Part shown: piece after piece, positions 644-20,985 of the stretch
How the letters are laid out: every line of letters begins with the position of its first letter
Position numbering within the stretch: position 1 is the first letter of the stretch
DNA from: Planctomycetota bacterium
GTDB taxonomy: Bacteria; Planctomycetota; UBA1135; GCA-002686595
Assembly (NCBI GenBank): GCA_012960475.1
Contig: DUBE01000040.1
Span: 1 to 64,000 of the forward strand
Direction: 5' to 3'
DNA length: 64,000 bases
Translations under genes and position numbers: made by a program
Notes under the pieces: generated by a model
Database searches by the model: none
Told to the model about the DNA's origin: nothing
Seen by the model: the letters and a program-made list of their open reading frames with translations, nothing else

Positions 644-947
644 TGTTGCTTTCTTGTTGGCGTTCTTGACAGCGGCTTCGATTGCTGCTGTGCGGGCTCC
701 CGTAGGTTAGCGATGCGGCCGGGGGGAGGTTGCCGGTTCCATGGACGTTGCATGGATTCGGTAGAATCCGATTGTTGATTTTTATGGAACTTCAGCTGGC
801 TTGGACCGTCAACGACTTTGCGGTCTCGGTCCAGGGGCTGTTCCGGGAGGGATGGGCATCAGAATCAACTCCTGACTTGCCCTACGAGCACTCACGCGAG
901 TTCAAGTCTTGAAGATCAGGCTGTGTCCTGCCTGCAACCTGACCCTC
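644..947. other. Intergenic stretch between porin and lipoprotein genes
   Basis: About 300 bases with no convincing gene. It holds a TTGACA hexamer at 666-671 without a good -10 at 17 bases, and a small inverted repeat GGATTC (754-759) / GAATCC (764-769) that contains a TAGAAT hexamer (762-767). A 42-codon frame begins at ATG 784, 16 bases after that hexamer, but it has no recognisable sequence, so I do not call it a gene. Confidence 0.4.
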
Positions 948-1322
948 TCAGCGCCGGGCAAGAATCGCGCTTTGAATCTTGAGCAGAACTGCGTCGCCCA
1001 CTGCCCGCGCTTCCTGTCCCTGGCGCTGGGAGCTGACTCGAAGGACCGAACCGCCGGAACTGTGCAGCACGCATTCGATGGTTACATCTGCCCCTTGGTA
1101 GGTCATGCGGGCCAGGCGGGGGTTGCTGGTGAAGCTGGCTTGACCACCAGAGAGTTCCTGAAAGACAGTGCGTGTTGCTTGCCAGGCCGTGGCGGGGGCG
1201 GCGCTGATCACCGAGCCATAGGTCTTGACCAGGACCCCTTCACTGGCCTGGGGGGTGCAGCAGGCAAAGAGGCTGGAGCACACCAGCAGGGAGAGGAGTC
1301 GTGCCTTGGGGAGTCGCTTCAT
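948..1322 (-). CDS. Small DUF3568-like lipoprotein
   Basis: This 124-residue protein starts with a basic signal peptide and a lipobox-like SLFACC around residues 18-22, so it is probably lipid-anchored. The body (VLVKTYGSVISAAPATAWQ, then beta-rich LARMTYQGADVTIEC and a SVLRVSSQ strand) has the size and strand pattern of small periplasmic DUF3568-type lipoproteins, whose role is unknown. It is transcribed towards the porin gene and diverges from the DUF983 gene at 1539. No good -10 box is seen near its ATG. Function unknown. Confidence 0.7.
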   Translation of the reverse strand: MKRLPKARLLSLLVCSSLFACCTPQASEGVLVKTYGSVISAAPATAWQATRTVFQELSGGQASFTSNPRLARMTYQGADVTIECVLHSSGGSVLRVSSQRQGQEARAVGDAVLLKIQSAILARR

Positions 1323-1525
1323 GGTGGGGGATTTTGGGGAAGATGCGGTCCGGGTGATTGAGTTTGCACGCTTGGGTACCTGCTGGGGACGCAGCCTTGC
1401 GTCGCAGCGGGCTCTGATTCACATGCACTCTCTTCTTGCTGGCAGTATAGGCTGGCTTGACTGGGGTTTTCACCGGAGCATTCCCAGGGAAGTCCCTGGA
1501 ACAGTCCGGGGAACCCATTGCGGGT

Positions 1526-1531
1526 TAGAAT
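1526..1531 (+). promoter_or_regulatory. -10 box TAGAAT of the DUF983 gene, leaderless layout
   Basis: TAGAAT ends 7 bases before ATG 1539, so transcription would begin at or next to the start codon. No matching -35 hexamer is obvious. Confidence 0.55.
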
Positions 1532-1538
1532 GCTGGCC

Positions 1539-1946
1539 ATGTCCAATCCAGAGAATTCAGGGCCCGCCTCTGCTGCTCCCTCCATCCCCGGAGCCATACG
1601 CCGTGCGTTCTTGCGTCGCTGCCCTCGTTGCGGCCTGGGGGAGTTGCAGGAGTCGCGCTTCGGGCTGCGGACTTCTTGCTCGGTGTGTGGACTCTGTTAT
1701 CGCAAGGAAGCCGGAGCAATGACCGGACAGATGTATCTGACAGCGATCATCACCGAGATCTTTACCGTGCTGCTGGTGTTGGCTGTGTTTTTCTTGACCG
1801 ACCTGGACACCCTGTCCTCGATCGCCCTGGGCCTGCCTTTGGTGGTGCTCTTCAGCTATCTGGTATTGCCCATCAGCATGCGCATCTGGGTGGCGGTGGA
1901 GTATGTCACCGACCGGGTGGGCGAGGCGGCGGATCGCTCCCACTGA
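1539..1946 (+). CDS. DUF983 family zinc-ribbon membrane protein
   Basis: The protein has an N-terminal zinc-ribbon-like pair CPRCG (near residue 28) and CSVCG (near residue 46), then GAMTGQMYLT and two hydrophobic helices, which is the DUF983 layout. The biochemical role of the family is not established. I chose ATG 1539 (MSNPENSG) over in-frame starts at 1518 and 1530 because a TAGAAT box sits 7 bases upstream and overlaps the region a longer form would need. MutM follows 11 bases after the stop, so the two are probably one transcript. Confidence 0.8.
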   Translation: MSNPENSGPASAAPSIPGAIRRAFLRRCPRCGLGELQESRFGLRTSCSVCGLCYRKEAGAMTGQMYLTAIITEIFTVLLVLAVFFLTDLDTLSSIALGLPLVVLFSYLVLPISMRIWVAVEYVTDRVGEAADRSH

Positions 1947-1957
1947 GGGGCCCTACA

Positions 1958-2827
1958 GTGCCTGAACTACCTGAAGTTGAAACGACCTTGCGCCTGGTGC
2001 GCCCTGGCATCTTGGGGCGCACGATTCGGGGCGTTGAGGTTTGCTGGCCGCGCACCATTGGGGGGCTTGGGGAGCATGAGTTTTCTTCTTTGGTGCTGGG
2101 TGCGCGCATTGCTCAGGCTCGGCGCAGGGCCAAATACATTCGCTTGGATCTTGAGCGCGGGAGCGCGCGGACCGGGTACGAGGCTGCGGGCAGTATCCTG
2201 ATTCACCTGCGCATGAGTGGGCGGCTCTTGCTTGGGAGGCGCGGGGCAGCGGCCCCCGGGTGGCGCCGGGTTTCACTGGAACTGGACCGGGGGGTGTTGC
2301 ACTTTGTCGATGTGCGCAAATTCGGGCGTTTTGTCTGGACGGCAACCCCCGCTGAGGATCTGGCGCACCTGGGACCTGAGCCCCTCTCCCATGAGTTCAC
2401 TGCCGAATGGTTGCATGGGGCTCTCGCTCGACGCAGGCGTCAGTTGAAAGCGCTCCTCCTGGATCAGAGCTTTCTTGCGGGACTGGGCAACATCTATGTG
2501 GACGAGGCCCTGCACGAGGCGCGCTTGCATCCTCTGACCCCAAGTGACAGGGTTTCGAAGGCCCGGGCCCGAGAATTGCATCAGGCCATTCAGCGTATTC
2601 TGGGCGAGGCGATCGAGCGCGAGGGGTCCTCCTTTGATGGCTTCTATGTGACCCCTGAAGGCAACCCTGGGGCCTACCAGGACCAGTTCCAGGTCTATGG
2701 TCGCGAGGGATTGCCCTGTCGTTCCTGTGGAATACGGCTGATCAAGATGCTGGTGGCCCAGCGGGGGACGCATGTCTGCACCCGCTGTCAGGTCCTGCCT
2801 CGCAAGCTCTTGGCTCGCAAAGCTTGA
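1958..2827 (+). CDS. mutM: Formamidopyrimidine-DNA glycosylase (MutM/Fpg)
   Basis: Base-excision-repair enzyme that removes 8-oxoguanine and formamidopyrimidines and nicks the DNA backbone. It begins at GTG 1958 with PELPEVE, giving the N-terminal catalytic Pro and Glu after Met removal. Lys in RRAKYI is the second conserved active-site lysine, and GLGNIYVDEAL is the helix-two-turn-helix signature. The C-terminal zinc finger is present as CRSCG (residues ~258-262) and CTRCQ (~278-282). At 289 residues it has full family length. The frame stays open upstream to 1628, but that extension is the DUF983 gene read in another frame. Confidence 0.96.
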   Translation: MPELPEVETTLRLVRPGILGRTIRGVEVCWPRTIGGLGEHEFSSLVLGARIAQARRRAKYIRLDLERGSARTGYEAAGSILIHLRMSGRLLLGRRGAAAPGWRRVSLELDRGVLHFVDVRKFGRFVWTATPAEDLAHLGPEPLSHEFTAEWLHGALARRRRQLKALLLDQSFLAGLGNIYVDEALHEARLHPLTPSDRVSKARARELHQAIQRILGEAIEREGSSFDGFYVTPEGNPGAYQDQFQVYGREGLPCRSCGIRLIKMLVAQRGTHVCTRCQVLPRKLLARKA

Positions 2828-2881
2828 GTACCAAGGCGCCCGCTCCGAAAACACCAACCCAGGAAACTGCGGCCCGAGGGG

Positions 2882-2909
2882 ATGACACGGGATGGGACCT
2901 CGCTAGAAT
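2882..2909 (+). promoter_or_regulatory. Promoter of efp: ATGACA, 16 bases, TAGAAT
   Basis: ATGACA (2882-2887) and TAGAAT (2904-2909) are 16 bases apart. The -10 ends 9 bases before ATG 2919, so the mRNA would have almost no leader. This is the best-formed sigma70-type promoter in the left part of the window. Confidence 0.6.
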
Positions 2910-2918
2910 GGCCCTTCC

Positions 2919-3491
2919 ATGATCGACACCAGCAACTTCAAGAAGGGCGTTTGCCTTGTCTACAAGGGTGATCCCTGCGTCATCGTCTCCTATACCGTCT
3001 CGACTCCCACCGCCCGGGGCGCCAACTCGATCTACAAGACCAAGATGCGCAATCTGCTCACGGGTCAGATCCTGAACGAGTCGATTCGTTCAGGGGAAAA
3101 GTATGAAGAGGTCGACATGGAGCGTCATCCCTGCAGCTATCTCTACAACGATGGCAGCAACTGGTACTTCATGGATGATGAGACCTATGAGCAGTTCGAT
3201 CTGGCCAGCAACAACATGGGCGGCGACGAGGGCTACATCTCAGATGGCATCGAAGGCATGCAGGCTGTGTTGATCGACAACAACGTGGTGGGTATTCAGA
3301 TGCCCTTGGCTGTGACCCTGACCGTGGCCGAGTGCGATCCCACCATCAAGGGGGCCTCCGCCCAAGCGCAACTCAAGCCGGCTACCTGTGATACTGGTTT
3401 CGGGGTGCAAGTGCCGCCCTATGTGGAGTCCGGTGAGCGCATCCGGGTGGATACCCGCGACGGGCGCTTCATCGAGCGGGCAAAGGACTGA
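2919..3491 (+). CDS. efp: Elongation factor P with arginine loop tip (EfpL/YeiP-like)
   Basis: A 190-residue EF-P with the three expected domains: the KOW-like N-terminal domain, a central OB domain and the C-terminal OB domain ending GERIRVDTRDGRFIERA. EF-P binds stalled ribosomes and relieves arrest at polyproline. The loop that carries the modified Lys34 in E. coli EF-P reads TPTARGANSIYKTK here, putting Arg33 at the tip. The PTARGA sequence is what I know from YeiP/EfpL proteins rather than from lysine-type EF-P (PGKGQ). No EpmA/EpmB or EarP modification gene is in the window. Single-gene transcript with its own promoter. Confidence 0.9.
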   Translation: MIDTSNFKKGVCLVYKGDPCVIVSYTVSTPTARGANSIYKTKMRNLLTGQILNESIRSGEKYEEVDMERHPCSYLYNDGSNWYFMDDETYEQFDLASNNMGGDEGYISDGIEGMQAVLIDNNVVGIQMPLAVTLTVAECDPTIKGASAQAQLKPATCDTGFGVQVPPYVESGERIRVDTRDGRFIERAKD

Positions 3492-3521
3492 TTTTCTCGC
3501 CAGGGCTCCGGAGAACCAGGC

Positions 3522-3998
3522 TCAGCTTTCCAATCGCTTGCGCCAGGCGGCTTCGACCTCGGGTACCGAAGGCCATTGCTCGCTGCAGAGGGACAGGTAC
3601 AAGGTCACATCTTCCGCCTTGTATTTTTGATCCAACTCCGCCAGGGCACCGTTCAGCCTGGCGGGGTCCGGCAGGGCTTCGGCCACATTCGAGATCATGC
3701 CCTTGTCGTGCTCCACGCCTACGCCATCGAGAAAGTCGAGCACCAACTGTTTGTGCTTGGTGAATAGATAGGTGCCAAACAGCTCGTAGCACATTTCCGC
3801 ATTGGCTTCGCCGTCGAGAATCCGCCGCGCCCGCTGGGCCCGCTTGGCCATGGGAATCTTGACGATCGCCTGGGGCCGGAACTTCAAGGCCTTGGCCACT
3901 TCACCGTCGAGGGGACCATAACCATCGCGCACGAGCGCTTCGTAAATGGAAAGGAAGCGCTCGTCCGAGAGCAGCCGGAGTTGTTCGATGACCTTCAT
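3522..3998 (-). CDS. Conserved-looking protein of unknown function, 158 aa
   Basis: I do not recognise the family. The protein is helical, soluble and charged, with no signal peptide or membrane segment. Features are MKVIEQLRLLSDERFLSIYEALVRDG at the start (split here as a leucine-rich helix), RPQAIVKIPMAKRAQRARRIL in the middle and a C-terminal helix with EVEAAWRKRLES. Its promoter is a TAGAAT box at 4008-4013 on the reverse strand, 9 bases before the ATG. Upstream of that lies one copy of a repeat also found ahead of the SGNH lipoprotein gene. Converges on efp with a 30-base gap. Coding evidence is the promoter, codon bias and lack of competing frames. Confidence 0.65.
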   Translation of the reverse strand: MKVIEQLRLLSDERFLSIYEALVRDGYGPLDGEVAKALKFRPQAIVKIPMAKRAQRARRILDGEANAEMCYELFGTYLFTKHKQLVLDFLDGVGVEHDKGMISNVAEALPDPARLNGALAELDQKYKAEDVTLYLSLCSEQWPSVPEVEAAWRKRLES

Positions 3999-4007
3999 GG
4001 GGTGGCG

Positions 4008-4013
4008 ATTCTA
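4008..4013 (-). promoter_or_regulatory. -10 box TAGAAT (reverse strand) of the 158-aa gene
   Basis: On the reverse strand TAGAAT ends 9 bases before the ATG at 3996-3998, the same spacing as efp. A repeat copy (4028-4058) lies 14 bases further upstream, where a regulator could bind. Confidence 0.55.
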
Positions 4014-4027
4014 ACCAGGGTGGGGGG

Positions 4028-4058
4028 GAGGATCGAACCAGAGGAGCTGGGGTGGATC
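4028..4058. repeat. Imperfect direct repeat, copy 1
   Basis: A 31-base element matching 4918-4948 at 27 of 31 positions: GAG-GAtCGAaCCA-GAGGAGCtgG-GGTGGATC here, with lower case marking differences. It lies upstream of the promoter of the reverse-strand gene 3522-3998. Copy 2 lies in the same orientation upstream of the next reverse-strand gene. A shared operator is the simplest reading. Confidence 0.6.
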
Positions 4059-4143
4059 TGAGAGCAAGACCCATGGTCCGTGCCGGGGCCCCGGCCGTGA
4101 ATATTGAGCGATGCCTTGCGACAAGAGAAGTTACCGGGTCGTG

Positions 4144-4878
4144 TCAGACACCCCAGGGGTCGTATTCCTGCACGGTTTCCCAAGCAATCCGGCGCAACCA
4201 AGTGTCTTCTTCCTTGGAAATGCCCCACTTCGCAGCAGGGGCAAAGTCCAGTTCTTCTGCGCTCTCCCCGTAAATCGTCGAGTAGATCACCAGCAAGGTG
4301 AGATATGTACCGTGCGCGCTGGGATGTTCCAAGTCCTCGCCATACATGTCGATGCCGGGGCGTTCCGATTGCGCTCGTTGCCAGGCCAGGCCGCAGGGGG
4401 CTACTTCAGCGCTTAGGGTCTCCGCCATCTTGCGGTGCTCGGCCGCAATCTCTTCCATGGAAATCCAATCCAAGCGTTCGTAGTCCCAGGCCATGAAGAA
4501 GATCAGGCGCGATCCCGCCTCGCGGGCAAGGGCGTTGAACTTGGCGGCGTAGGTGTGGAAGTCAGCGACCGTGGTTTCGGGCAGGTCCTCCTGCAAGACG
4601 ACCACGTCGAATTTCCCATTGGCGATGGTGTCTCTAGCGTTCGTGCGTTTCCAAAGGACCTTGAGCGATGCGCCCCCGCGCACGACTTTGGATGTCTTGG
4701 CCCCCTGCGCTTCTCCTCGCGCTGCGCTGAAGCTCTCCATGGCCTTCCAAAGTCCTCCCCCGTTCCAGAATGTGAAACTGTTGCCAACGAAGAGGATCGT
4801 GGCGGGGGGCGTGGGAATGGGCGTGGTGCTGCGGCAGGCTGAGATGGAGAGGGCTGCGAGGATGAACAGGAGTCTCAT
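4144..4878 (-). CDS. SGNH/GDSL-like hydrolase lipoprotein
   Basis: A 244-residue protein with signal peptide and lipobox (LSISAC, Cys15), so it is lipid-anchored. The core begins ILFVGNSFTFWNGG (residues ~28-41), which is SGNH block I with its Ser nucleophile in GNSFT. A GGASL segment may be the Gly block. LQEDL takes the block III position, and EHPSAHGTYL near residue 190 supplies the catalytic HP of block V. SGNH hydrolases are esterases or lipases; this variant with GNSFT and E-H-P-S is common in proteins of unknown substrate. Its promoter (TATGAT at 4887-4892) gives a nearly leaderless mRNA, and a repeat shared with the downstream gene lies upstream. Confidence 0.8.
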   Translation of the reverse strand: MRLLFILAALSISACRSTTPIPTPPATILFVGNSFTFWNGGGLWKAMESFSAARGEAQGAKTSKVVRGGASLKVLWKRTNARDTIANGKFDVVVLQEDLPETTVADFHTYAAKFNALAREAGSRLIFFMAWDYERLDWISMEEIAAEHRKMAETLSAEVAPCGLAWQRAQSERPGIDMYGEDLEHPSAHGTYLTLLVIYSTIYGESAEELDFAPAAKWGISKEEDTWLRRIAWETVQEYDPWGV

Positions 4879-4886
4879 GGGTTGAG

Positions 4887-4892
4887 ATCATA
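4887..4892 (-). promoter_or_regulatory. -10 box TATGAT (reverse strand) of the SGNH lipoprotein gene
   Basis: TATGAT on the reverse strand ends 8 bases before the ATG at 4876-4878. Repeat copy 2 lies about 25 bases further upstream. Confidence 0.5.
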
Positions 4893-4917
4893 CTGGTCTT
4901 CTTTTGGGTCAGGGGAG

Positions 4918-4948
4918 GAGGACCGAGCCAGAGGAGCGAGGGTGGATC
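4918..4948. repeat. Imperfect direct repeat, copy 2
   Basis: Counterpart of 4028-4058, 890 bases away, 27 of 31 identical. It sits in the divergent region between the SGNH lipoprotein (reverse) and the queuosine-precursor transporter (forward), so it could act on either. Confidence 0.6.
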
Positions 4949-5034
4949 GTCTTGCAGGATCCCGTTTGGACTTGCGGGTCTGGGGGGTGTCCGCCCCTTG
5001 CGTCAGGACCTCCGGCAAGCGAGGATGATCGTGC

Positions 5035-5847
5035 ATGGCCGGACCCCCTCACGAAGCAAGCAGGCCCTTTCCCAGGGGAGAGGCCACTTATGCCTTCATG
5101 GCGGCTTTGTTCGTGGTGGCCCTGGTCTTGACCAATGTGATTGGCACCAAGCTGTTTGTGGTGGACCTGGGTCTGCCGACGACCGGTTTTTGGAGCTGGA
5201 TCTGTGCACCCTTGAATTTCTTCGAGGGCGCGACCCTGACATCTGGAATCTTGACCTATCCCTTGACCTTTCTGTTGACCGACCTGGTCAGCGAGATCTG
5301 GGGCAGGCGGCGGGCGAACATGATGGTCATCTTCGGCTTTGTGATGAGCTTGATGATGCTGGGCATCTTGCAGATGGCAGTGCACTTGAGCCCTAGCCCC
5401 TACTGGACCCAAACCGGTTTTGGACTGGATGACGCGGATCAGATGCAGAATGCTTTTTCTGCGGTCTTTGCCAATCCGGGCGTGCTGCTCGGGGCGTCCA
5501 TGTGCGCCTACCTGGTAGCCCAGTTGTTTGATGTGCGCCTGTACCACTTCTGGTGGCGCGTGACCCGGGGCCGTCACATGTGGCTACGCAACAATGGTTC
5601 CACAGGTATCAGCCAGCTGGTGGACACGATCATCGTCAATGGAATCTTCCTGCACTTCGGAACGGGCTTTGGTCCTGACAACGGTTGGGATTTTGCGCGC
5701 ATCGCGCAGGTGATCTGGATGGTCTACCTCTTCAAGCTGATGCTGGCCTTGATCGACACGCCCTTGATCTATGGCGGGCGGTATCTGCTGGAGCGATTCC
5801 TGGGGATTGCGCATGACCCGGAGCGGGTTGAGGCGCCCCTGGCCTAG
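5035..5847 (+). CDS. Queuosine precursor transporter (YhhQ/VUT family)
   Basis: A 270-residue inner-membrane protein with about six hydrophobic helices. LTYPLTFLLTDLVSEIWGRR (residues ~74-93) is the family signature, followed by STGISQLVDTIIV with the conserved Asp-Thr. E. coli YhhQ takes up preQ0 for queuosine tRNA modification. The N-terminal region before the first helix is short and polar. It stands alone, diverging from the SGNH gene and converging on slyD. With Dus, TrmJ and MiaE nearby, the window has an unusual number of tRNA-modification genes, although they are not in one operon. Confidence 0.9.
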   Translation: MAGPPHEASRPFPRGEATYAFMAALFVVALVLTNVIGTKLFVVDLGLPTTGFWSWICAPLNFFEGATLTSGILTYPLTFLLTDLVSEIWGRRRANMMVIFGFVMSLMMLGILQMAVHLSPSPYWTQTGFGLDDADQMQNAFSAVFANPGVLLGASMCAYLVAQLFDVRLYHFWWRVTRGRHMWLRNNGSTGISQLVDTIIVNGIFLHFGTGFGPDNGWDFARIAQVIWMVYLFKLMLALIDTPLIYGGRYLLERFLGIAHDPERVEAPLA

Positions 5848-5880
5848 GTGCCTTGGGTGCCCCATGTGGCCCAGGCTGAC

Positions 5881-5906
5881 AGGATCCCAGGGGTAGAATC
5901 GATCCT
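5881..5906. terminator. Possible bidirectional hairpin between convergent genes
   Basis: AGGATC (5881-5886) and GATCCT (5901-5906) form a perfect 6-base inverted repeat with a 14-base loop between the stop codons of the transporter gene and slyD. There is no T tract, so the assignment is weak. Confidence 0.3.
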
Positions 5907-6366
5907 AGGTCGTCTCGCAAGCCAGGACCTTGACGGCAACGCGCACTTCCTGGCCAGCCAGAGGGTGGTTGAAGTCCAGCACCACCGCTTCGGGGTTGAT
6001 CTCGATGATCAATGCGGTGATCGGCTCGTCGGGAACCTCATCATCTGATTCGCCCTCTTCCGCTTCGAATACAAGTTCCACCGACTCGCCCACAGTGAAG
6101 TTGTCGGCTTCGGGGAACTCCGCCCGGGGCACGGTTTCGATGCGGCTTGGGTCGACCTCACCAAAGGCATCGTCGCCAGCCAGGGTCAGGTTCAGCTCGG
6201 CGCCTACATCGAGGCCCGTAAGAGCGTTTTCGATGCCGGCGGGCAATTCGCCGGAGCCCAGTACGGTCTCCACCGGGCCGCCCTCTTCGCTGGATTCGAA
6301 CAATTCGCCTGAGGCGTCGAATACTTGGTATTCCAGGCGCACAAGCGCCCCTTCTTCAATCTTCAT
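5905..6366 (-). CDS. FKBP-type peptidyl-prolyl isomerase, SlyD-like
   Basis: A 153-residue cytosolic prolyl isomerase and chaperone. It opens with a KIEEGALVRLEYQVFDASGE strand pair, has a PVETVLGSGELPAGIENALTG segment (the FKBP half containing G-x-x-E-x-A-L-x-G-M-like residues), an inserted-flap region with FGEVDPSRIETVPR, and ends LDFNHPLAGQEVRVAVKV, the diagnostic SlyD closing motif. The His-rich nickel-binding tail of E. coli SlyD is absent; the flap insertion is instead strongly acidic (EAEEGESDDEVPDEP). Its ATG overlaps the speA stop by 4 bases, so the two are one transcript. Confidence 0.92.
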   Translation of the reverse strand: MKIEEGALVRLEYQVFDASGELFESSEEGGPVETVLGSGELPAGIENALTGLDVGAELNLTLAGDDAFGEVDPSRIETVPRAEFPEADNFTVGESVELVFEAEEGESDDEVPDEPITALIIEINPEAVVLDFNHPLAGQEVRVAVKVLACETT

Positions 6367-8330
6367 GGTTGTTGCTTTGGTTGGGCCAGAGAGGCCTTGG
6401 GATCAGGAGCCGGAGTGTCTTGATGGGTGAGATAGGTGTAGCCCCGCAGGCCCGCTTCGTAGCGTTCCCAAAATGCGCCGGATTCTTCAAAGGTCATGCG
6501 CCCTGCTTCAAGAGCGTCTTCCACATGTCCGCGCAGGCTGCGCAGCAGGTCCTCTTCAAAGTACTCTACATAGGAAAGCACTTCCTTGACACGGTCCCCG
6601 CGCAGGATGTTGGAGAGGCGCGGCCTGCCCCGCTCGTCTAGGTCCACATGCACCACATTGGTGTCCCCGAAGAGGTTGTGCATGTCCCCTAGAATCTCCT
6701 GGTAGGCGCCGGTCAGGAAGAAGCCCATGTGATAGGGCTCGGAGTCCTTGAGAGCGTGGACCTCAAGCACATCCTTGGTGCCCTGTTGATCTAAGAAGCG
6801 TCCGATGCGTCCGTCAGAATCGCAGGTCAGGTCCGCCAGAGTGGCGCGACGGGTGGGCTCCTCGTTCAGCCGTTGAATTGGCATCACGGGAAAAACCTGA
6901 TCGATGGCCCAGGCGTCCGGCAGGGACTGGAAGATCGACATGTTGACGAAGTAGGTGTCCGAGAGAGTGAGCTCCAGGCCCTGCATGTCCTCGGGCACCA
7001 CATCCATCTGGCGTACGACTCTCAGCACCCCGTTGGCGGCCCGCCAAAAGTGTTCTTCCACCTGGCCGCGCTGCACCAGGTTGAGCAAGCCGGTCTCGAA
7101 CAGCAGCCCCGCCTTTTCGCGCAGGTCCAGAGCATCGTGATAATGCTCCTGGGCGTTGCCCTCGGTCAGCCCGCTTGCCAGCGCCGCCATCTCGCGCACC
7201 ACGTCAGGCGCGTCCAGCGTCAGAGGCTGGGGGTCGTGGCCGTCCTCGAATGAGGAAACGCCCACAACCTCGGCTACCAGCACCGCGTGGTGGGCGGCGA
7301 TGGCCCGGCCGGACTCGGAAACAACCGTCGGCTGGGTGATGTTGTGTTTGCGGCAGGCTTCCCCCAGGCTCCAGACCACATCGTTGGCGTACTCCTGCAG
7401 GGAGTAGTTCATGGTGGAGTCGCTGTCCACCGCGTCCCCTTCGTAATTGACCCCCAGGCCTCCTCCCACATCGAACCAATCGATGCGGCAGCCGAGTTCA
7501 CTGAGGCCTACAAAGATGTGGGTGGCTTCCCGCAGGGCTTGTTTGAGCGAACGGATCTGGGTGATCTGGCTGCCGATGTGGAAGTGGCAGAGGCGCAGGC
7601 AGGAGAGCATGCCCCGTGCCCCAAGGGTTTCGGTAACCGCCACGATCTCCCGTGCGGTCAAGCCGAATTTGGAACGGTCCCCTGAAGAATCCTGCCAGCG
7701 ACCTGATCCGCGCAGCGCCAATTTGCTGCGCACCCCGATCACCGGCTGGATGCCCAAGCGTTCGGACGCGGCCAGAATCGTGTCGAGTTCGGTGAGTTTT
7801 TCCACCACCAGCACTGCGGTGATGCCCAGGTGCGAGGCCAGGAGCGCCATCTCCACATACTCCTGGTCTTTGTACCCGTTGCAGATCATCAGGGTGCCCT
7901 CGCCCGCCTGGATCGAGATGCCCGCGATCAGCTCGGGCTTTGAGCCCACTTCAAGACCCATGCCATAGGAGCGGCCTTCCTTGAGCAGAGCCTCCACCAC
8001 ATGGCGCTCCTGGTTGACCTTGATGGGAAAGACCCCGCGGTAGGGCGCATTGAAATCGTATTCCCGGCGGGCGTGGTTGAAGGCCGTGTTGATCTGGCGT
8101 ACCCGGGCGCGAAGCAAGCCGTCGAAGCGCAGCAGGAGCGGCGCGCTCACGCCTCGCTGGCGGATTTGTTCCACCAGCTTGGGCAGATCGATGCTGCCCC
8201 CCTCGGGGCCCTCGGGGGTCACGGTCAGGTTGCCCAGGGGGCTGACCCCGAAGAAGGGCTGGCCCCAAGCGGAAATGTTGTAGAGCTCTTCGCTCCTGGC
8301 AGCATTCCAGGGTTGGGGGGACGTGTTCAT
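6363..8330 (-). CDS. speA: Biosynthetic arginine decarboxylase (SpeA)
   Basis: PLP enzyme turning arginine into agmatine, the first step of polyamine synthesis. The 655-residue length is typical. RGVFPIKVNQ contains the PLP lysine, GLEVGSKPEL follows, DVGGGLGVNYEG is the phosphate-binding glycine loop, and TCDSDGRIG carries the second-subunit catalytic Cys. The start MNTSPQPWNA (ATG 8328-8330) replaces a longer frame opening at 8444 because that extension is proline-rich low-complexity sequence and overlaps a TATAAT box at 8361-8366. The downstream slyD overlaps by 4 bases. Agmatine and putrescine metabolism recurs conceptually in the amine operon at 58.8-64 kb. Confidence 0.96.
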   Translation of the reverse strand: MNTSPQPWNAARSEELYNISAWGQPFFGVSPLGNLTVTPEGPEGGSIDLPKLVEQIRQRGVSAPLLLRFDGLLRARVRQINTAFNHARREYDFNAPYRGVFPIKVNQERHVVEALLKEGRSYGMGLEVGSKPELIAGISIQAGEGTLMICNGYKDQEYVEMALLASHLGITAVLVVEKLTELDTILAASERLGIQPVIGVRSKLALRGSGRWQDSSGDRSKFGLTAREIVAVTETLGARGMLSCLRLCHFHIGSQITQIRSLKQALREATHIFVGLSELGCRIDWFDVGGGLGVNYEGDAVDSDSTMNYSLQEYANDVVWSLGEACRKHNITQPTVVSESGRAIAAHHAVLVAEVVGVSSFEDGHDPQPLTLDAPDVVREMAALASGLTEGNAQEHYHDALDLREKAGLLFETGLLNLVQRGQVEEHFWRAANGVLRVVRQMDVVPEDMQGLELTLSDTYFVNMSIFQSLPDAWAIDQVFPVMPIQRLNEEPTRRATLADLTCDSDGRIGRFLDQQGTKDVLEVHALKDSEPYHMGFFLTGAYQEILGDMHNLFGDTNVVHVDLDERGRPRLSNILRGDRVKEVLSYVEYFEEDLLRSLRGHVEDALEAGRMTFEESGAFWERYEAGLRGYTYLTHQDTPAPDPKASLAQPKQQP

Positions 8331-16214: not shown

Positions 16215-17624
16215 GTGCTCTTCCATTCCCCTCTGTTCCTGACCGCATTCCTGCCCCTGGTGGTGCTGCTGGCCTGGGTCGCCGGTCGGCGCGGCCGGAA
16301 CTGGGTGCTGCTCGCCGCGAGTCTGTTGTTCTATGCCTGGGGCGAAGGCCCCATGGTGGCGGTGCTGGCCGCTTCAGGTTTGGTGCACCATTTGCTCGGT
16401 CTGCTGGTGGGCCGCAGGGGAACTCTGCTTTCTCACTGGGCCCTGGGCCTGGGGGTGGCCTTTGATCTGGGACTCCTGGTGCTCTTCAAGTACTCGGCCT
16501 GGCTCTTTGGAGAGACTCCCGACCTGGCCCTGGCACTGCGTTCCGATGGGGCCACGGGACCGCCCATCGGAGTCAGTTTCTTTACCTTCCAAGCACTCTC
16601 TTATCTAGTGGATGTGCACCGCGGTGTGGTTGAGCCCCAGCGCAATCCCTTCAAGTTTGCGTTGTATCTCTCGCTCTTTCCCCAGTTGATCGCTGGCCCC
16701 ATTGTGCGCTACGCAGATGTGGCCAGTCAGATCGATGGGCGCGAGGTCAAATTGCAGCGCGTGGCGGAGGGTTTTCGTCGCTTTGCCACGGGCTTGGGCA
16801 AGAAGGTTCTGTTGGCTGGCAGCATTGCTCCGGTGGCTGATCAGGCCTTCAACCTGGCCCCCGGCGAGTTGGGTTTTGGCCTGGCCTGGCTGGGCCTGGC
16901 GTGTTACTCGCTGCAGATCTACCTGGACTTCTCAGGCTACAGCGACATGGCCATCGGCATCGGGCGCATGTTGGGCTTTGAGTTCCTGGAGAACTTCTTG
17001 CACCCCTATTCCAGTCGTTCGGTGACCGAGTTCTGGCGACGTTGGCATGTGTCTCTTTCCAGTTGGTTCCGGGACTATCTCTACATTCCCCTGGGGGGCA
17101 ACCGTCACGGGCGGGTACGCACGGGCTGCCATCTGGTGGCGGTTTTTCTCTTGTGCGGCCTGTGGCACGGAGCGGCCTGGACATTTGTGCTTTGGGGAGC
17201 CTGGCATGGTGCCCTGTTGGTCATGGAACGGGTGGGCCTGGGACGCCTCTTGGCGCGCCTGCCCCGGGTCGGTCAGCACCTTTGGCTGCTGCTGGCGGTT
17301 TGCTTGGGCTGGGTACCCTTCCGCTGTGAGTCCATGAGTCAGGCCGGGTCCTACTTTGGCGCCTTGTTTGGTTTTGGATCCTCCAACAGTCCCTGGACCT
17401 TGGAGCGATTCATGACTCCGGCGGTGTTTCTTGGATTGCTGCTGGGAGCTCTGGCCAGCGTGCCCTGGGTTCCCTGGGCCCGGCGCGCCCTGGCAGAGAT
17501 CAACACTTCTGCCCGCCGTCGCTGGCTGGTGGTGGCCGACCTTTCGCTTTTCCTGGTTCTAGCCTTGAGTCTGGCTGAGGGCTTGGGCGGTACGAGCACT
17601 CCCTTCATCTATTTCCGCTTCTAG
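16215..17624 (+). CDS. MBOAT O-acyltransferase, AlgI-like
   Basis: A 469-residue polytopic inner-membrane protein of the AlgI family, which moves acetyl groups across the membrane to modify exported polymers such as alginate or cellulose. GVSFFTFQALSYLVDVHRG (residues ~117-135), SLFPQLIAGPIVRY, DFSGYSDMAIGIGRMLGF, FWRRWHVSLSSWFRDYLYIP and CGLWHGAAWTFVLWG (with the catalytic His) are all canonical. It starts at GTG 16215, the first start before MBOAT sequence. The AlgX-like gene follows after 4 bases, so acetyl transfer and polymer acetylation are co-transcribed, although no polymer synthase lies nearby. Confidence 0.94.
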   Translation: MLFHSPLFLTAFLPLVVLLAWVAGRRGRNWVLLAASLLFYAWGEGPMVAVLAASGLVHHLLGLLVGRRGTLLSHWALGLGVAFDLGLLVLFKYSAWLFGETPDLALALRSDGATGPPIGVSFFTFQALSYLVDVHRGVVEPQRNPFKFALYLSLFPQLIAGPIVRYADVASQIDGREVKLQRVAEGFRRFATGLGKKVLLAGSIAPVADQAFNLAPGELGFGLAWLGLACYSLQIYLDFSGYSDMAIGIGRMLGFEFLENFLHPYSSRSVTEFWRRWHVSLSSWFRDYLYIPLGGNRHGRVRTGCHLVAVFLLCGLWHGAAWTFVLWGAWHGALLVMERVGLGRLLARLPRVGQHLWLLLAVCLGWVPFRCESMSQAGSYFGALFGFGSSNSPWTLERFMTPAVFLGLLLGALASVPWVPWARRALAEINTSARRRWLVVADLSLFLVLALSLAEGLGGTSTPFIYFRF

Positions 17625-17628
17625 ATCC

Positions 17629-19206
17629 ATGAGTGAGCAGATCAAAATCGAAGGCACCAACGGGGATCGCATCCTTGTCATGGCCTGTCTGCTGCTGCTG
17701 GCGGTACCGGGGCTGAGTTCCCTGGGTGTGGACATGGAGCAACGGGGCGAAGAACTTCGGCGCCGAGAACGGCGGCCTGTTCAAGGATGGCAGGCCCCTG
17801 CGGCTATCAAGGACAAGACCGGCTGGGCGGAGAAAGCCTACTCGGATCGTCTTGGATTGCGCACACCGCTTCTGCAACTGAGGTCCCTGTTTCATTGGGG
17901 AGTGTTGGGGCAGGCTCCGGGCACTGAGATGGTGCGTGGAAAGGGCGGTTGGCTCTTCCTTGACTATGGTCGCCACTTGGACAACTGGCGCGGCGCTGCA
18001 CCCATGAGTGATGCCTTGTTGCAGGACTGGGTGAAGAACTTCTTGATCCGCAAGGACTCTGCTGAGGCGGGTGGGTCCAAGTACATAGTCTGTCTCTTGC
18101 CCGGCAAGCCGAGCATCTATCCCGAGCGTATTCCCGAGCGTTTTGCTCGGGTGGGTCCCTCACGAAGGGATCAGTTGATGAGTGCCCTGCGCGAGGCGGG
18201 CGTGTCGGTGCGTGATCTTCTGCCCAGCATGTTGGCGGGCAAGGCGCATGACAGTCAGGAGCAGTGGGATTTCATGGTGCACCCAACGGGCACCCACTGG
18301 TCGGGGCGGGGCGAGCGTGTGGCTGAGGCCTGGCTACGGGCAGAGCTTGAGATTGAGCCAGTGCGCGTCCCGTGGGTGCGGCGCAAGGGACAGCGAGCTG
18401 TGGGGGATTCTTGGACCACGAGGCTCTATCTCGATGGGCTGGCTCCTTTCAGTGATCTGGAATGGTGGACCGTGCAAACGCCTGATATGGGGACCAAGCT
18501 GCGCAACAAGCGCTTCAGTCGTCAATGGAAGAACGGGGAGCGCCGCTTCCACATGAACAATGACTCCTATGGTCGTGGCGTTCGCGACCTGCTTGGCAGG
18601 AATATCTGGCTGCGATCCGTATGGGAACACTCCCTGGACGGGGGCCGCACGAGGACCAGTCAAGCTGAGGTGGTTGTGGACTGGTTCGTGGAACGCATTC
18701 TCGATGATCTGGTTCCAAGTGAGTTCATGACAAGCACACCCGCAGACATGGAGCGGGCTTTTGCCAGGGGTGAGTCGAGTGGGTGGAGCCTGGAGCCTGG
18801 CAATCCAGGGACCTGGCGTGTGCTTGGCGAGCAGGCTGTGCACCAGGACCTGGAACAGCCAGGAGAAATCCTCGCGGGAGTCAAGCCCGCGACCTTGTTC
18901 CTGGACGGCCTGCCTGAGTTGGAACAGGACTGTGTTCTGGAGTTGGACCTTGTGGCGCCCGGGTTCGGCGGCGTTGAAGTGGGAGTGGTTTCCAGTCCCA
19001 AGGGTCTCAAGAAGGCCGAAGCGAGTCAGTGTGTTGCCCATCTGGGGGGGCGCAGGGTTCTCCATGTTCCGATCCTGGGTTTCAAGCTGAAGCGTGGGGA
19101 TCGGCTGCAGGTGCTCTTGGATTGCGGTCCTGGGACCTATGTCCTGCACCGGGCGCGTCTGAGGAAGGTCGAACCTCTGCGTGGGCTGGGTCTGCGGGCG
19201 AGATAG
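17629..19206 (+). CDS. AlgJ/AlgX-like SGNH acetyltransferase with an altered active site
   Basis: A 525-residue protein with one N-terminal membrane anchor (residues ~14-32) and a periplasmic AlgJ/AlgX-type SGNH domain. MVRGKGGWLFL is the family opening (G-K-x-G-W-L-F). The usual D-T-H-W catalytic pair reads GTHWS here (near residue 223), so the Asp is replaced by Gly while His is kept. The serine block reads MNNDSYGRG (near residue 307). The C-terminal 150 residues form a beta-rich, carbohydrate-binding-like domain, as in AlgX. Paired with the MBOAT gene it should acetylate an exported polysaccharide, but the missing Asp makes catalysis uncertain. Confidence 0.82.
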   Translation: MSEQIKIEGTNGDRILVMACLLLLAVPGLSSLGVDMEQRGEELRRRERRPVQGWQAPAAIKDKTGWAEKAYSDRLGLRTPLLQLRSLFHWGVLGQAPGTEMVRGKGGWLFLDYGRHLDNWRGAAPMSDALLQDWVKNFLIRKDSAEAGGSKYIVCLLPGKPSIYPERIPERFARVGPSRRDQLMSALREAGVSVRDLLPSMLAGKAHDSQEQWDFMVHPTGTHWSGRGERVAEAWLRAELEIEPVRVPWVRRKGQRAVGDSWTTRLYLDGLAPFSDLEWWTVQTPDMGTKLRNKRFSRQWKNGERRFHMNNDSYGRGVRDLLGRNIWLRSVWEHSLDGGRTRTSQAEVVVDWFVERILDDLVPSEFMTSTPADMERAFARGESSGWSLEPGNPGTWRVLGEQAVHQDLEQPGEILAGVKPATLFLDGLPELEQDCVLELDLVAPGFGGVEVGVVSSPKGLKKAEASQCVAHLGGRRVLHVPILGFKLKRGDRLQVLLDCGPGTYVLHRARLRKVEPLRGLGLRAR

Positions 19207-19218
19207 TCCAAGTGGGGA

Positions 19219-19246
19219 TGGACCTCTCCTTCTCAGGGGCTAGGAT
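19219..19246 (+). promoter_or_regulatory. Promoter of the seleno-thioredoxin gene: TGGACC, 16 bases, TAGGAT
   Basis: TGGACC (19219-19224) and TAGGAT (19241-19246) are 16 bases apart, and the -10 ends 6 bases before ATG 19253. This supports the upstream start and therefore the reading through TGA 19454. Confidence 0.5.
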
Positions 19247-19252
19247 CAGTCC

Positions 19253-20752
19253 ATGGCGTTGCGACCCTTGGCGTTGATTGTGTTCTTGCTTTGTAGTTCC
19301 TTGTCTGCCCGTCAGGTTCAAGTCACGGGTACTGCCGAGGGACAGGTCCTGCCGGATTTGGAGCTGCCTCTGGTGGGAACCGAGGGCACTCTGCGTTTGC
19401 GCGGGGAGGCCGGGGATTCTCGCCCGATTCTGTTGGTCACCTTTGCATCCTGGTGAGCTGGTTGTCGCAAGCACGTGCCCGTGTGGCATGCCGCGACAAG
19501 AGAACTGGTGGCTGCGGGCAGATTGCGCGTGATCGGCGTCGTGCAGGAGCAGCATCGGGAGCGCGCGGCCCTATGGCTCAAGTGGCAGGGGATCGAATGG
19601 CCGGTGGCTTGGGATCCTTTCAACCAACTGGAAGTCAAGTTGGTGCCGAAGGTGTTGGCCGTGCAGCCAGGAGGGTTGGTTCTCAAGGATCGCCTGCATC
19701 CCAATAGAATTGAAGGAGAGGGTGGCCTGCTGGAAGTCATGGGGCGCATGCAGGGGGTGACGGCCGAGTTGGAGCAACCAGCGCAATTTGGTCCTCATCT
19801 GGCCCGGGCCAGGGGAGCCATCACCCCTGATGACGACCCGGGGGAATTCGTTCCGGCGGCAATGGCGATCTTGCTGATGGACCGGCAGGGAATGGACGCC
19901 GGATCGTGTAGTCGGCGGCGGGCCGCTGTGCGGACTCTTGTGGACCGTGCCCTGGCCCCCAACGCCTCGGCCCGCGATCACTTTCGCGCGGGGGTAGCCC
20001 AGAGATTGTTGTTGGACCTGGAGGGCCCCAGCCAACGACCTGGTGAACAACCCAACGAGGGCCGTTTTCAAGGGGCGCTCAATTCCTGGTCCCGGGCCTT
20101 GAGTCTGGATCCCGGCCAGTACATCTGGCGCCGACGGATCCAGCAATGGGGGCCGCGCCTGGACAAGCCCTATCCTTTTTACGATTGGGTTCCCTTGGCG
20201 AGGAAAGAGTTGGCTGCCCGTGGCCTGAAGCCGGCAGTTTGGAAGGTGCTGCTCTCAGGAGCGGAAACAGCCAAGGGTGGTTATGACCTGCCCGTGCCCG
20301 TGATCCAAGAGAACCCCGATCCTCTCGCACGTATTCCACTGGACGAGAAGCAGCGCGCGATTCTGCACTGGGCCGTGGCGCCCCACACTGGTTTTGCTGG
20401 ACCCAATGTGCGCGTTGCCCCGGGGACTTCCCGGGTACATTTGAGCCTTGTTCCCGCAGAGGATGTGCGCATCGAACCCGAGGGTGGGCCTCTGGGAATC
20501 TGGATCGATCTGCCTGATGGCTGGCGAGCGAGGAGTTCCTGGATTGACCTGCAGTCCGTGGGTGAGGCGGACTATCAGAATCCGCGCCTGGATTTTGAGT
20601 TGGTTGCCTCGGCTCCGGGCCCACCTGGGGAAGCGCCTCCCCCCGTGCCCCGCCTGACGGGCTTTGTGCTCTACCCGGTTTGCATCGGCGAGAACGGCGT
20701 CTGCAATCTGTTGCGCCGCAACTTCGACCTGGACCTCCGTCCCGCGCGCTAG
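19253..20752 (+). CDS. Selenocysteine thioredoxin-like (TlpA-like) periplasmic protein with DsbD-alpha-like tail
   Basis: Reading the TGA at 19454-19456 as selenocysteine gives one 499-residue protein. Residues 1-19 are a signal peptide. LPDLELPLVGTEG begins the thioredoxin fold, and FASW-U68-A-G-C71-RKH puts Sec in the first Cys position of the C-x-x-C motif, exactly where TlpA proteins have W-C-x-x-C. VPKVLAV supplies the cis-proline region. A helical repeat-like segment follows (~220-330). The last 100 residues are beta-rich and end FVLYPVCIGENGVC (C477, C484), resembling the N-terminal domain of DsbD. The frame is identical on both sides of the TGA, and a hairpin follows it. I infer a periplasmic thiol or peroxide reductase with its own electron-relay domain. 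Confidence 0.85.
19454..19490 (+). promoter_or_regulatory. Sec codon TGA and candidate bacterial SECIS hairpin
   Basis: TGA 19454-19456 is followed after 17 bases by stem CGTGCC (19474-19479), loop CGTGT (19480-19484) and GGCATG (19485-19490), one pair being G-T. An outer pair TTGTCGC/GCGACAA (19462-19468 with 19493-19499) can enclose it. Loop distance from the TGA (24-28 bases) is in the range used by SelB in bacteria. Confidence 0.6.
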
Positions 20753-20985
20753 GTTCCGAATGCTCGAAAGCGCTGCCAGAGGCTGGCCTTTCCCGGCGCT
20801 GCTTCAAAGCTGACGCAATCTTTGCGCAGGTTGATTTGTTGGTGGTTGCCCGGCACCTGCTGCTCATCCAGCCAGGCGTCCTTTTGGGTGGTCTGCATGT
20901 GGTCGGGATGCCAGCAGCCCGTTCGTGGGGCCTGGTAGGGGGCCATCTTCAGGTGGCAGCAATTCTTGCAGAGGATCTTGGTCAT
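20749..20985 (-). CDS. Small Cys/His-rich protein of unknown function
   Basis: A 78-residue protein with CKNCCHLKM near the N-terminus and TGCWHPDH near residue 23, giving C-x2-C-C-H and C-x-H spacing that could bind a metal. I know of no named family. It overlaps the seleno-thioredoxin stop by 4 bases on the opposite strand, and both frames show normal codon bias to the end. No strong promoter box is seen upstream. A small zinc- or iron-binding protein is plausible, but this is inference from residues only. Confidence 0.55.
   Translation of the reverse strand: MTKILCKNCCHLKMAPYQAPRTGCWHPDHMQTTQKDAWLDEQQVPGNHQQINLRKDCVSFEAAPGKASLWQRFRAFGT

Follow-up and report, generated by a model that had tools for sequence, protein, structure and literature searches.

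Proteins of the CcmG/ResA/TlpA type serve as reductants outside the cytoplasm, and a partner of this kind, CcmG/DsbE, has been captured in a disulfide-linked complex with DsbD-alpha, the thioredoxin-fold protein and the DsbD domain being joined in PDB entry 1z5y. Selenoproteins with a thioredoxin-like fold have been described from several sources. A survey of marine metagenomes, in the portions available to us, lists the UxxC classes Trx-like 1, Prx-like 1 and Prx-like 3 (PMC2398784), and Table 1 of a 2026 review, which by the review's own count holds 119 families, contains UxxC thioredoxin-like and redoxin entries (e.g., 'thiol-disulfide isomerase-like' and 'redoxin family protein'), a 'UGC-containing TlpA' and a rhodanese/DsbD fusion-like protein (PMC13188914, as far as the available part goes). 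Here we compare with these systems a gene encoded in a 64,000-nucleotide stretch of a planctomycete contig (hereafter the window), in which a predicted selenocysteine (Sec) codon interrupts a thioredoxin-fold protein that continues into a DsbD-alpha-like domain.

Between ATG 19253 and the terminal TAG at 20750-20752, the TGA at 19454-19456 is the sole in-frame stop (Table 1). The sequence-only reading of this locus had placed the segments before and after the TGA in one frame and the TGA itself on the leading Cys of a W-C-x-x-C motif, and translation bears this out, the read-through product running ...FASW-U68-AGCRKHVP.... Upstream, 46 bases separate the gene from an AlgX-like gene, which is itself preceded by an MBOAT gene. 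These AlgI/AlgX-like neighbours had been offered as functional context. They are indeed present, but when the flanking open reading frames of 80 loci were clustered (up to 6 kb per side) no cluster occurred in more than 13 of the 80 and no operon partner emerged; hence, the AlgI/AlgX context carries no weight. In 13 of the 80 loci the family gene is preceded, in the same orientation, by a gene judged by eye to be sulfatase/phosphodiesterase-like (in locus L081 at 914-3334 (+), 2.5 kb away), which is likely local synteny. The well-spaced promoter proposed ahead of ATG 19253 was not recovered, as a sigma-70 scan of positions 19100-20900 returned no match; planctomycete promoters may differ from the sigma-70 pattern that was scanned, so that this result takes one supporting point away from the sequence-only reading and does no more.

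Table 1. Positions of the read-through gene, its parts and neighbours in the window, and of the Sec machinery on other contigs (C) of the same genome.
Feature	Position	Strand	Basis or remark
MBOAT gene (AlgI-like)	16215-17624		upstream neighbour
AlgX-like gene	17629-19206		upstream neighbour
Read-through coding sequence	19253..20752	+	499 residues, Sec predicted at 68, stop TAG 20750-20752; similar-length relatives, same frame
Likely signal peptide (about residues 1-20)	19253..19312	+	hydrophobic N-terminus
TlpA/CcmG/ResA-type thioredoxin-fold domain (residues 30-165)	19340..19747	+	active site U68-A-G-C71, cis-Pro candidate P132
In-frame TGA, predicted Sec68 codon	19454..19456	+	TGA in all 130 loci (106 different coding sequences)
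SECIS-type hairpin, 6 pairs, 5-base loop CGTGT	19474..19490	+	synonymous-codon null, covariation
TPR-like helical domain (residues 181-322)	19793..20218	+	helices in predicted model
DsbD-alpha-like C-terminal domain (residues 362-499)	20336..20749	+	profile-profile comparison, Foldseek
Cys477 codon	20681..20683	+	conserved 100/102
Cys484 codon	20702..20704	+	conserved 100/102
selA	C66:4175-5266		own genome
selD with in-frame TGA (L019)	C66:5443-6390		own genome
tRNA-Sec (selC), anticodon tca (UCA)	C66:9279-9372		own genome
selB	C5:5128-7017		own genome

To place the gene in its family, homologous loci were read from a set of relatives (30 loci, 101 genomes), a sample of the phylum (20 loci, 392 genomes) and a named genome collection (80 loci, the best 80 of 223 pattern-matched stretches encoding relatives). 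Once overlaps are removed, these 130 loci come down to 106 different coding sequences and 103 different 60-mers. The aligned codon is TGA in all 130 loci and TAA or TAG in none, and TGA occupies the active-site codon in 106 of 106 distinct family genes, the window's gene included. The surrounding residues A65, S66, W67, C71 and R72 are invariant in a 43-row alignment, as are W67, U68 and C71 taken as the motif, and the differences among five copies from the same genus, before and after the TGA alike, are mostly at third codon positions. The sequence-only reading had allowed for homologues that end before the TGA or begin after it; in the loci read, the TGA and both of its flanks are conserved. 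According to the submitters' titles, 54 of the 80 named loci belong to Planctomycetota, 7 to Acidobacteriota, 5 to Verrucomicrobiota and 4 to Gemmatimonadota, with one bin each from Armatimonadota and Chloroflexota and 8 unassigned, and taxonomic groups cluster in a quick tree of 79 of these 80 loci.

Deposited proteins present the gene differently. Searches of 5.8 billion protein sequences gave 336, 320 and 7 hits from 7,997, 7,999 and 2,381 scored candidates, respectively, and 176 different database proteins among the matches listed (the best 120 of 336, the best 120 of 320 and those of the 7-hit search) were added to the family alignment. Among these listed matches, all 176 start after the TGA and leave the U68 and C71 columns empty, and 173 keep both C-terminal cysteines. 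This is the pattern expected if the TGA were a true stop, leaving a short upstream peptide and a separate TPR/Ig-like protein beginning at GTG 19475; gene callers, however, treat any UGA in this way. A true stop would split the thioredoxin fold in mid-domain, and it is at odds with a codon that is TGA in every locus and never TAA or TAG, with the third-position bias on both sides of it in the five same-genus copies, and with the selection on the downstream hairpin described below. We consider a true stop extremely improbable. Equally improbable is that the TGA reflects a sequencing or assembly error or that the gene is a pseudogene: most of the sequences do come from metagenome assemblies, but the TGA recurs in 106 distinct genes from many assemblies, and the window's gene has no other in-frame stop. 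One family copy is carried by the complete chromosome of the isolate Poly30 (CP036434.1, L081); therefore, bins are not the sole source of the family. This copy (L081:5848-7428) would give 527 residues with Sec91, an estimated 55 kDa, and its annotated form is a fragment of 432 residues (P0038).

Homologues with cysteine in place of selenocysteine are the usual support for a bacterial selenoprotein, and are non-essential to such a case. The search for relatives with Cys at position 68, proposed along with the original reading, came back empty: no Cys form of the full-length protein occurs in the 130 loci or in the 176 database proteins among the matches listed.

A hairpin had been noted 17 bases after the TGA, and its first paired base is indeed 19474, with arms at 19474-19479 and 19485-19490 enclosing a loop at 19480-19484. 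With positions counted from 0 at the T of the TGA, all six pairs (+20/+36 to +25/+31) can form in 88 of the 103 sequences, against 31.7 +/- 4.0 expected and a maximum of 43 under a null in which codons were redrawn synonymously from each gene's own usage (300 draws); the other 15 lack one or two of the six pairs. The 23-base piece folds with a mean energy of -9.3, compared to -5.7 in the null (60 draws). When a 24-base window was moved along 60 of the 103 sequences from offset -60 to +117, the excess fell at +15, +18 and +21 (z of -12.8, -16.1 and -7.0), and at all other offsets z lay between -4.2 and +3.1. Among the 76 less similar sequences, two-sided changes were found in 20 cells versus 2.9 in shuffles, a value that none of 500 shuffles reached, and the true partner columns pair in 97.4% of cells, versus 20-51% when partners are slid by 1-3 columns. 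Counted by pair rather than by cell, two-sided changes are less distinctive: 3 pairs have one, versus 1.6 in shuffles, and 49 of 500 shuffles reach 3. Loop sequences (n=103) are GGTCT (41), CGGGT (27), CGTGT (23), AGGTT (6), GGCCT (4), AGTTT (1) and AGTCT (1), and base 2 is G in all 103, an apical-loop G being a feature of bacterial SECIS hairpins; GGTCT is the loop of the Escherichia coli fdhF SECIS, and SECIS recognition can differ between species. Judged from these alignments, the hairpin is conserved beyond coding needs, with compensatory pairs.

A selenoprotein requires decoding machinery, and the four genes that the sequence-only reading named for checking, selA, selB, selC and selD, were all found in the window's own genome (3.83 Mb in 68 contigs, 90% complete). 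There, selD adjoins selA and lies about 3 kb from the tRNA-Sec gene, with selB on another contig; SelD of this genome is probably itself a selenoprotein. Of the 101 genomes in the relatives set, counting the own genome, 97 have SelA and 95 have SelB. This leaves no contrast in Sec machinery, and the phylum sample was therefore used, in which SelA (E <= 0.001) is present in 38 of the 41 genomes with a strong family match versus 234 of the 351 others (one-sided p 1.9e-4), 'strong' being our choice of E <= 1e-15 and one of the 38 having SelA by a weak hit (G362). The three strong-match genomes in which no SelA match was found (G179, G243 and G348) are drafts rated 92, 84 and 91% complete. The presence of the full Sec machinery also bears on whether UGA has another meaning throughout the genome, as in code 4, instead of being read as selenocysteine. 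Such recoding would account for the reading through of a single internal TGA, but the terminal stop is itself TGA in 69 of the 130 loci (TAG or TAA in the window's genus), and we regard it as the least probable of all the readings discussed here. On the evidence given to this point, a true stop, a sequencing error, a pseudogene and genome-wide recoding are all rejected. The sequence evidence thus far makes a strong case for a predicted selenoprotein family that has gone unannotated.

At the N-terminus, a stretch of 11 residues with mean hydropathy of at least 1.8, starting within the first 40 residues, is present in 101 of the 106 distinct proteins, and the protein is probably exported. The domain that follows has the thioredoxin fold of the TlpA/CcmG/ResA subtype, the W-C/U-x-x-C motif and the cis-proline position, with U68 and C71 found in 102 of 102 rows of the family alignment and P132 in 98 of 102. 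Cysteine is also found at position 105, shortly after an EQH motif, in 52 of 102 members (alanine in the window's protein), and may give half of the family a third redox-active or resolving residue. The TPR-like middle domain contains a near-invariant block, YIWRRRIQQ-x-GPRLDKPYPFYDW (residues 290-312); a TPR_2 match was obtained for 11 of 43 members at E <= 0.01, and the family profile matches consensus TPR proteins. Weak matches confined to the front part of the protein, each with one in-frame TGA (G022:C1:819778-820014, G020:C220:24147-24515, G006:C43:13146-13508, G399:C1:769727-770326 and others), are possibly other thioredoxin-like selenoproteins of planctomycetes.

The nature of the C-terminal domain is central to what the protein might do. 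The sequence-only reading described a C477-x6-C484 pair in a beta-rich C-terminus, and both cysteines do fall within a predicted beta hairpin. With U68 counted as cysteine, a share of 15% Cys or more among the 102 rows is reached at U68 and C71 (102 each), at C477 and C484 (100 each) and at position 105 (52), so that past the thioredoxin domain the C-x6-C pair forms the sole columns of this kind. The likeness to the DsbD N-terminal domain that was also claimed fares differently by method. It is upheld by a profile-profile comparison with 33 DsbD_N-type domains (30 relatives' loci, two Pfam-supported domains of the own genome and, by eye, the second N-terminal domain of L151), which gave a probability of 96.1 and an E of 3.7e-9 over 101 columns with both cysteines aligned. 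The hhalign score was 55.8, compared to at most 19.3 in 40 column shuffles, 14.4 for the reversed profile and 15.9 and 15.8 for the protein's other two domains (control probabilities <=4.0, 0.56 and about 1.0, respectively). In Foldseek the top three matches are DsbD-alpha, at E 2e-3 with none reaching E 1e-3, and 15 of the 25 top rows are DsbD N-domains or ScsB. Pfam's own DsbD_N model does not bear the likeness out: it has no match in the window's domain, and at E <= 1 it picks up 3 of 73 members, the best of them at 0.0066. A profile comparison with only three DsbD_N-type domains gave no match, and the domain went unidentified in sequence searches of Pfam, NCBIfam and PDB. The cysteine spacing is x6 in the window's protein, x5 in E. 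coli DsbD and anywhere from x3 to x6 among the DsbD_N domains of the relatives. Taken together, the domain is likely a divergent DsbD-alpha homologue, or one that works alike, outside PF11412 membership. In some members (L051, L052, L086 and L099) this domain is followed by a long tail of low complexity, in which Gly, Glu, Pro, Gln or Asp predominate.

These data could also fit a selenoprotein whose C-terminal Ig-like domain is no relay, its cysteine pair being a structural disulfide or a substrate or metal site and Sec68 being reduced by DsbD directly or by another thioredoxin. The VIA-align matches are generic Ig-like sandwiches, with many unrelated ones scoring equal or higher; NPCBM_assoc (NEW3 domain) matches more members than DsbD_N (16 of 73 versus 3 of 73 at E <= 1); and the pair is missing in two of 102 relatives (L040 and L064). 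On the other hand, the DsbD_N-type profile match aligns both cysteines and stands far above its controls, the three best Foldseek matches are DsbD-alpha, and the pair is kept in 100 of 102 rows while the domain around it varies, with a mean column identity of 30%. We consider a protein with no relay unlikely, if far less so than the readings rejected above.

Our preferred reading, with a probability of about three in four, is a multi-phylum selenoprotein family with predicted Sec at a thioredoxin-fold active site that is likely reduced by the family's DsbD-alpha-like domain. The sequence-only proposal of a seleno-thioredoxin fused to a DsbD-alpha-like domain and hidden by an in-frame TGA thus finds support in the conservation of the TGA and its flanks, the machinery, the hairpin and the profile match. 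Four family-wide redox residues place two pairs in one chain, one of the CcmG type and one of the DsbD-alpha type. In the simplest reading, which we infer, electrons would pass from DsbD to C477/C484, on to Sec68/Cys71 and then to an extracytoplasmic substrate. Aided by the hairpin at 19474-19490, SelB and tRNA-Sec would insert selenocysteine at UGA 19454, and the chain would leave the cytoplasm by way of its predicted signal peptide. A DsbD with DsbD_N and DsbD_TM domains is encoded in the own genome, and DsbD_N is found in 91 of the 101 genomes of the relatives set. From its similarity to DsbD-alpha, the C477/C484 pair may receive electrons from this membrane DsbD and may in turn reduce a selenenylsulfide between Sec68 and Cys71, either of its own chain or of an adjacent one, after which Sec68 would reduce its substrate, most likely a disulfide or oxidised thiol. 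The TPR-like middle may tether the redox domains to each other or serve to bind a partner. The own genome also contains another unusual placement of DsbD-alpha, an FG-GAP-repeat protein that ends in a Pfam DsbD_N domain (L152 1495-2793 (-)).

A broader proposal, that this is a self-reducing, Sec-only exported family whose own DsbD-alpha relay carries electrons of membrane DsbD into extracytoplasmic selenium chemistry in Planctomycetota and several further phyla, with no cysteine fallback, and that it has gone unseen through UGA-cut deposits, has slightly less than even odds. The family is widespread, with 223 pattern-matched stretches in one genome collection. With the active site missing from all 176 database entries among the matches listed, annotation, selenoprotein counts and studies of the 'hypothetical' or 'TPR' fragments are built on the wrong protein. 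Should the relay be true, a selenoenzyme and its reductant are joined in one chain, and the question of why selenium is used outside the cytoplasm becomes testable.

Comparison with known systems shows which parts of this architecture are shared. The fold and the positions of W-C-x-x-C and the cis-proline are common to the family and to CcmG/ResA/TlpA; it differs in that its first Cys is a predicted Sec and in its fusion to TPR-like and DsbD-alpha-like domains. With DsbD-alpha (PF11412) it shares a predicted beta-sandwich, a Cys pair near the domain end and the profile-profile match, whereas the family's domain lies below the Pfam cut-off, has x6 spacing and is C-terminal, without the DsbD membrane domain. 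The nearest NCBIfam model to the window's protein is NF041054, a ResA-like WAxxUGC selenoprotein, which it matches at 32.4 bits against a cut-off of 300, with UAGC here and UGC in the model's name; this weak match reaches the helical part in two relatives (P0103 and P0109). TsoB (NF045694, rhodanese/DsbD fusion-like) likewise combines a selenoprotein with a DsbD-like part, but has a rhodanese domain and, according to the table available in PMC13188914, a UxxxxU motif, and its model is not among the NCBIfam matches of the window's protein. The marine UxxC Trx/Prx-like selenoproteins share the thioredoxin fold, UxxC and a bacterial SECIS with this family, and its N-terminal domain may have been counted among them as short reads. 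They differ in that Trx-like 1, Prx-like 1 and Prx-like 3 are accompanied in their samples by 2,608 to 7,880 Cys homologues (PMC2398784, Table 2), compared to none in the 130 loci or the listed database matches of this family, and in that no DsbD-alpha-like partner domain is named for them in the available portions of that paper, a comparison made by description only. No three-domain protein of the window's kind is listed in Table 1 of PMC13188914 as available, and no published description of the family or its architecture was found in the accessible literature, including the available parts of PMC1088965, PMC4807772, PMC5029168, PMC9402790 and PMC9312934, most subscription papers falling outside this scope. 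UxxC thioredoxin-like selenoproteins are known, the 'redoxin family protein' representatives HEU0032618.1 and MBA3499694.1 may belong to this family, and the fused DsbD-alpha-like domain is the novel part.
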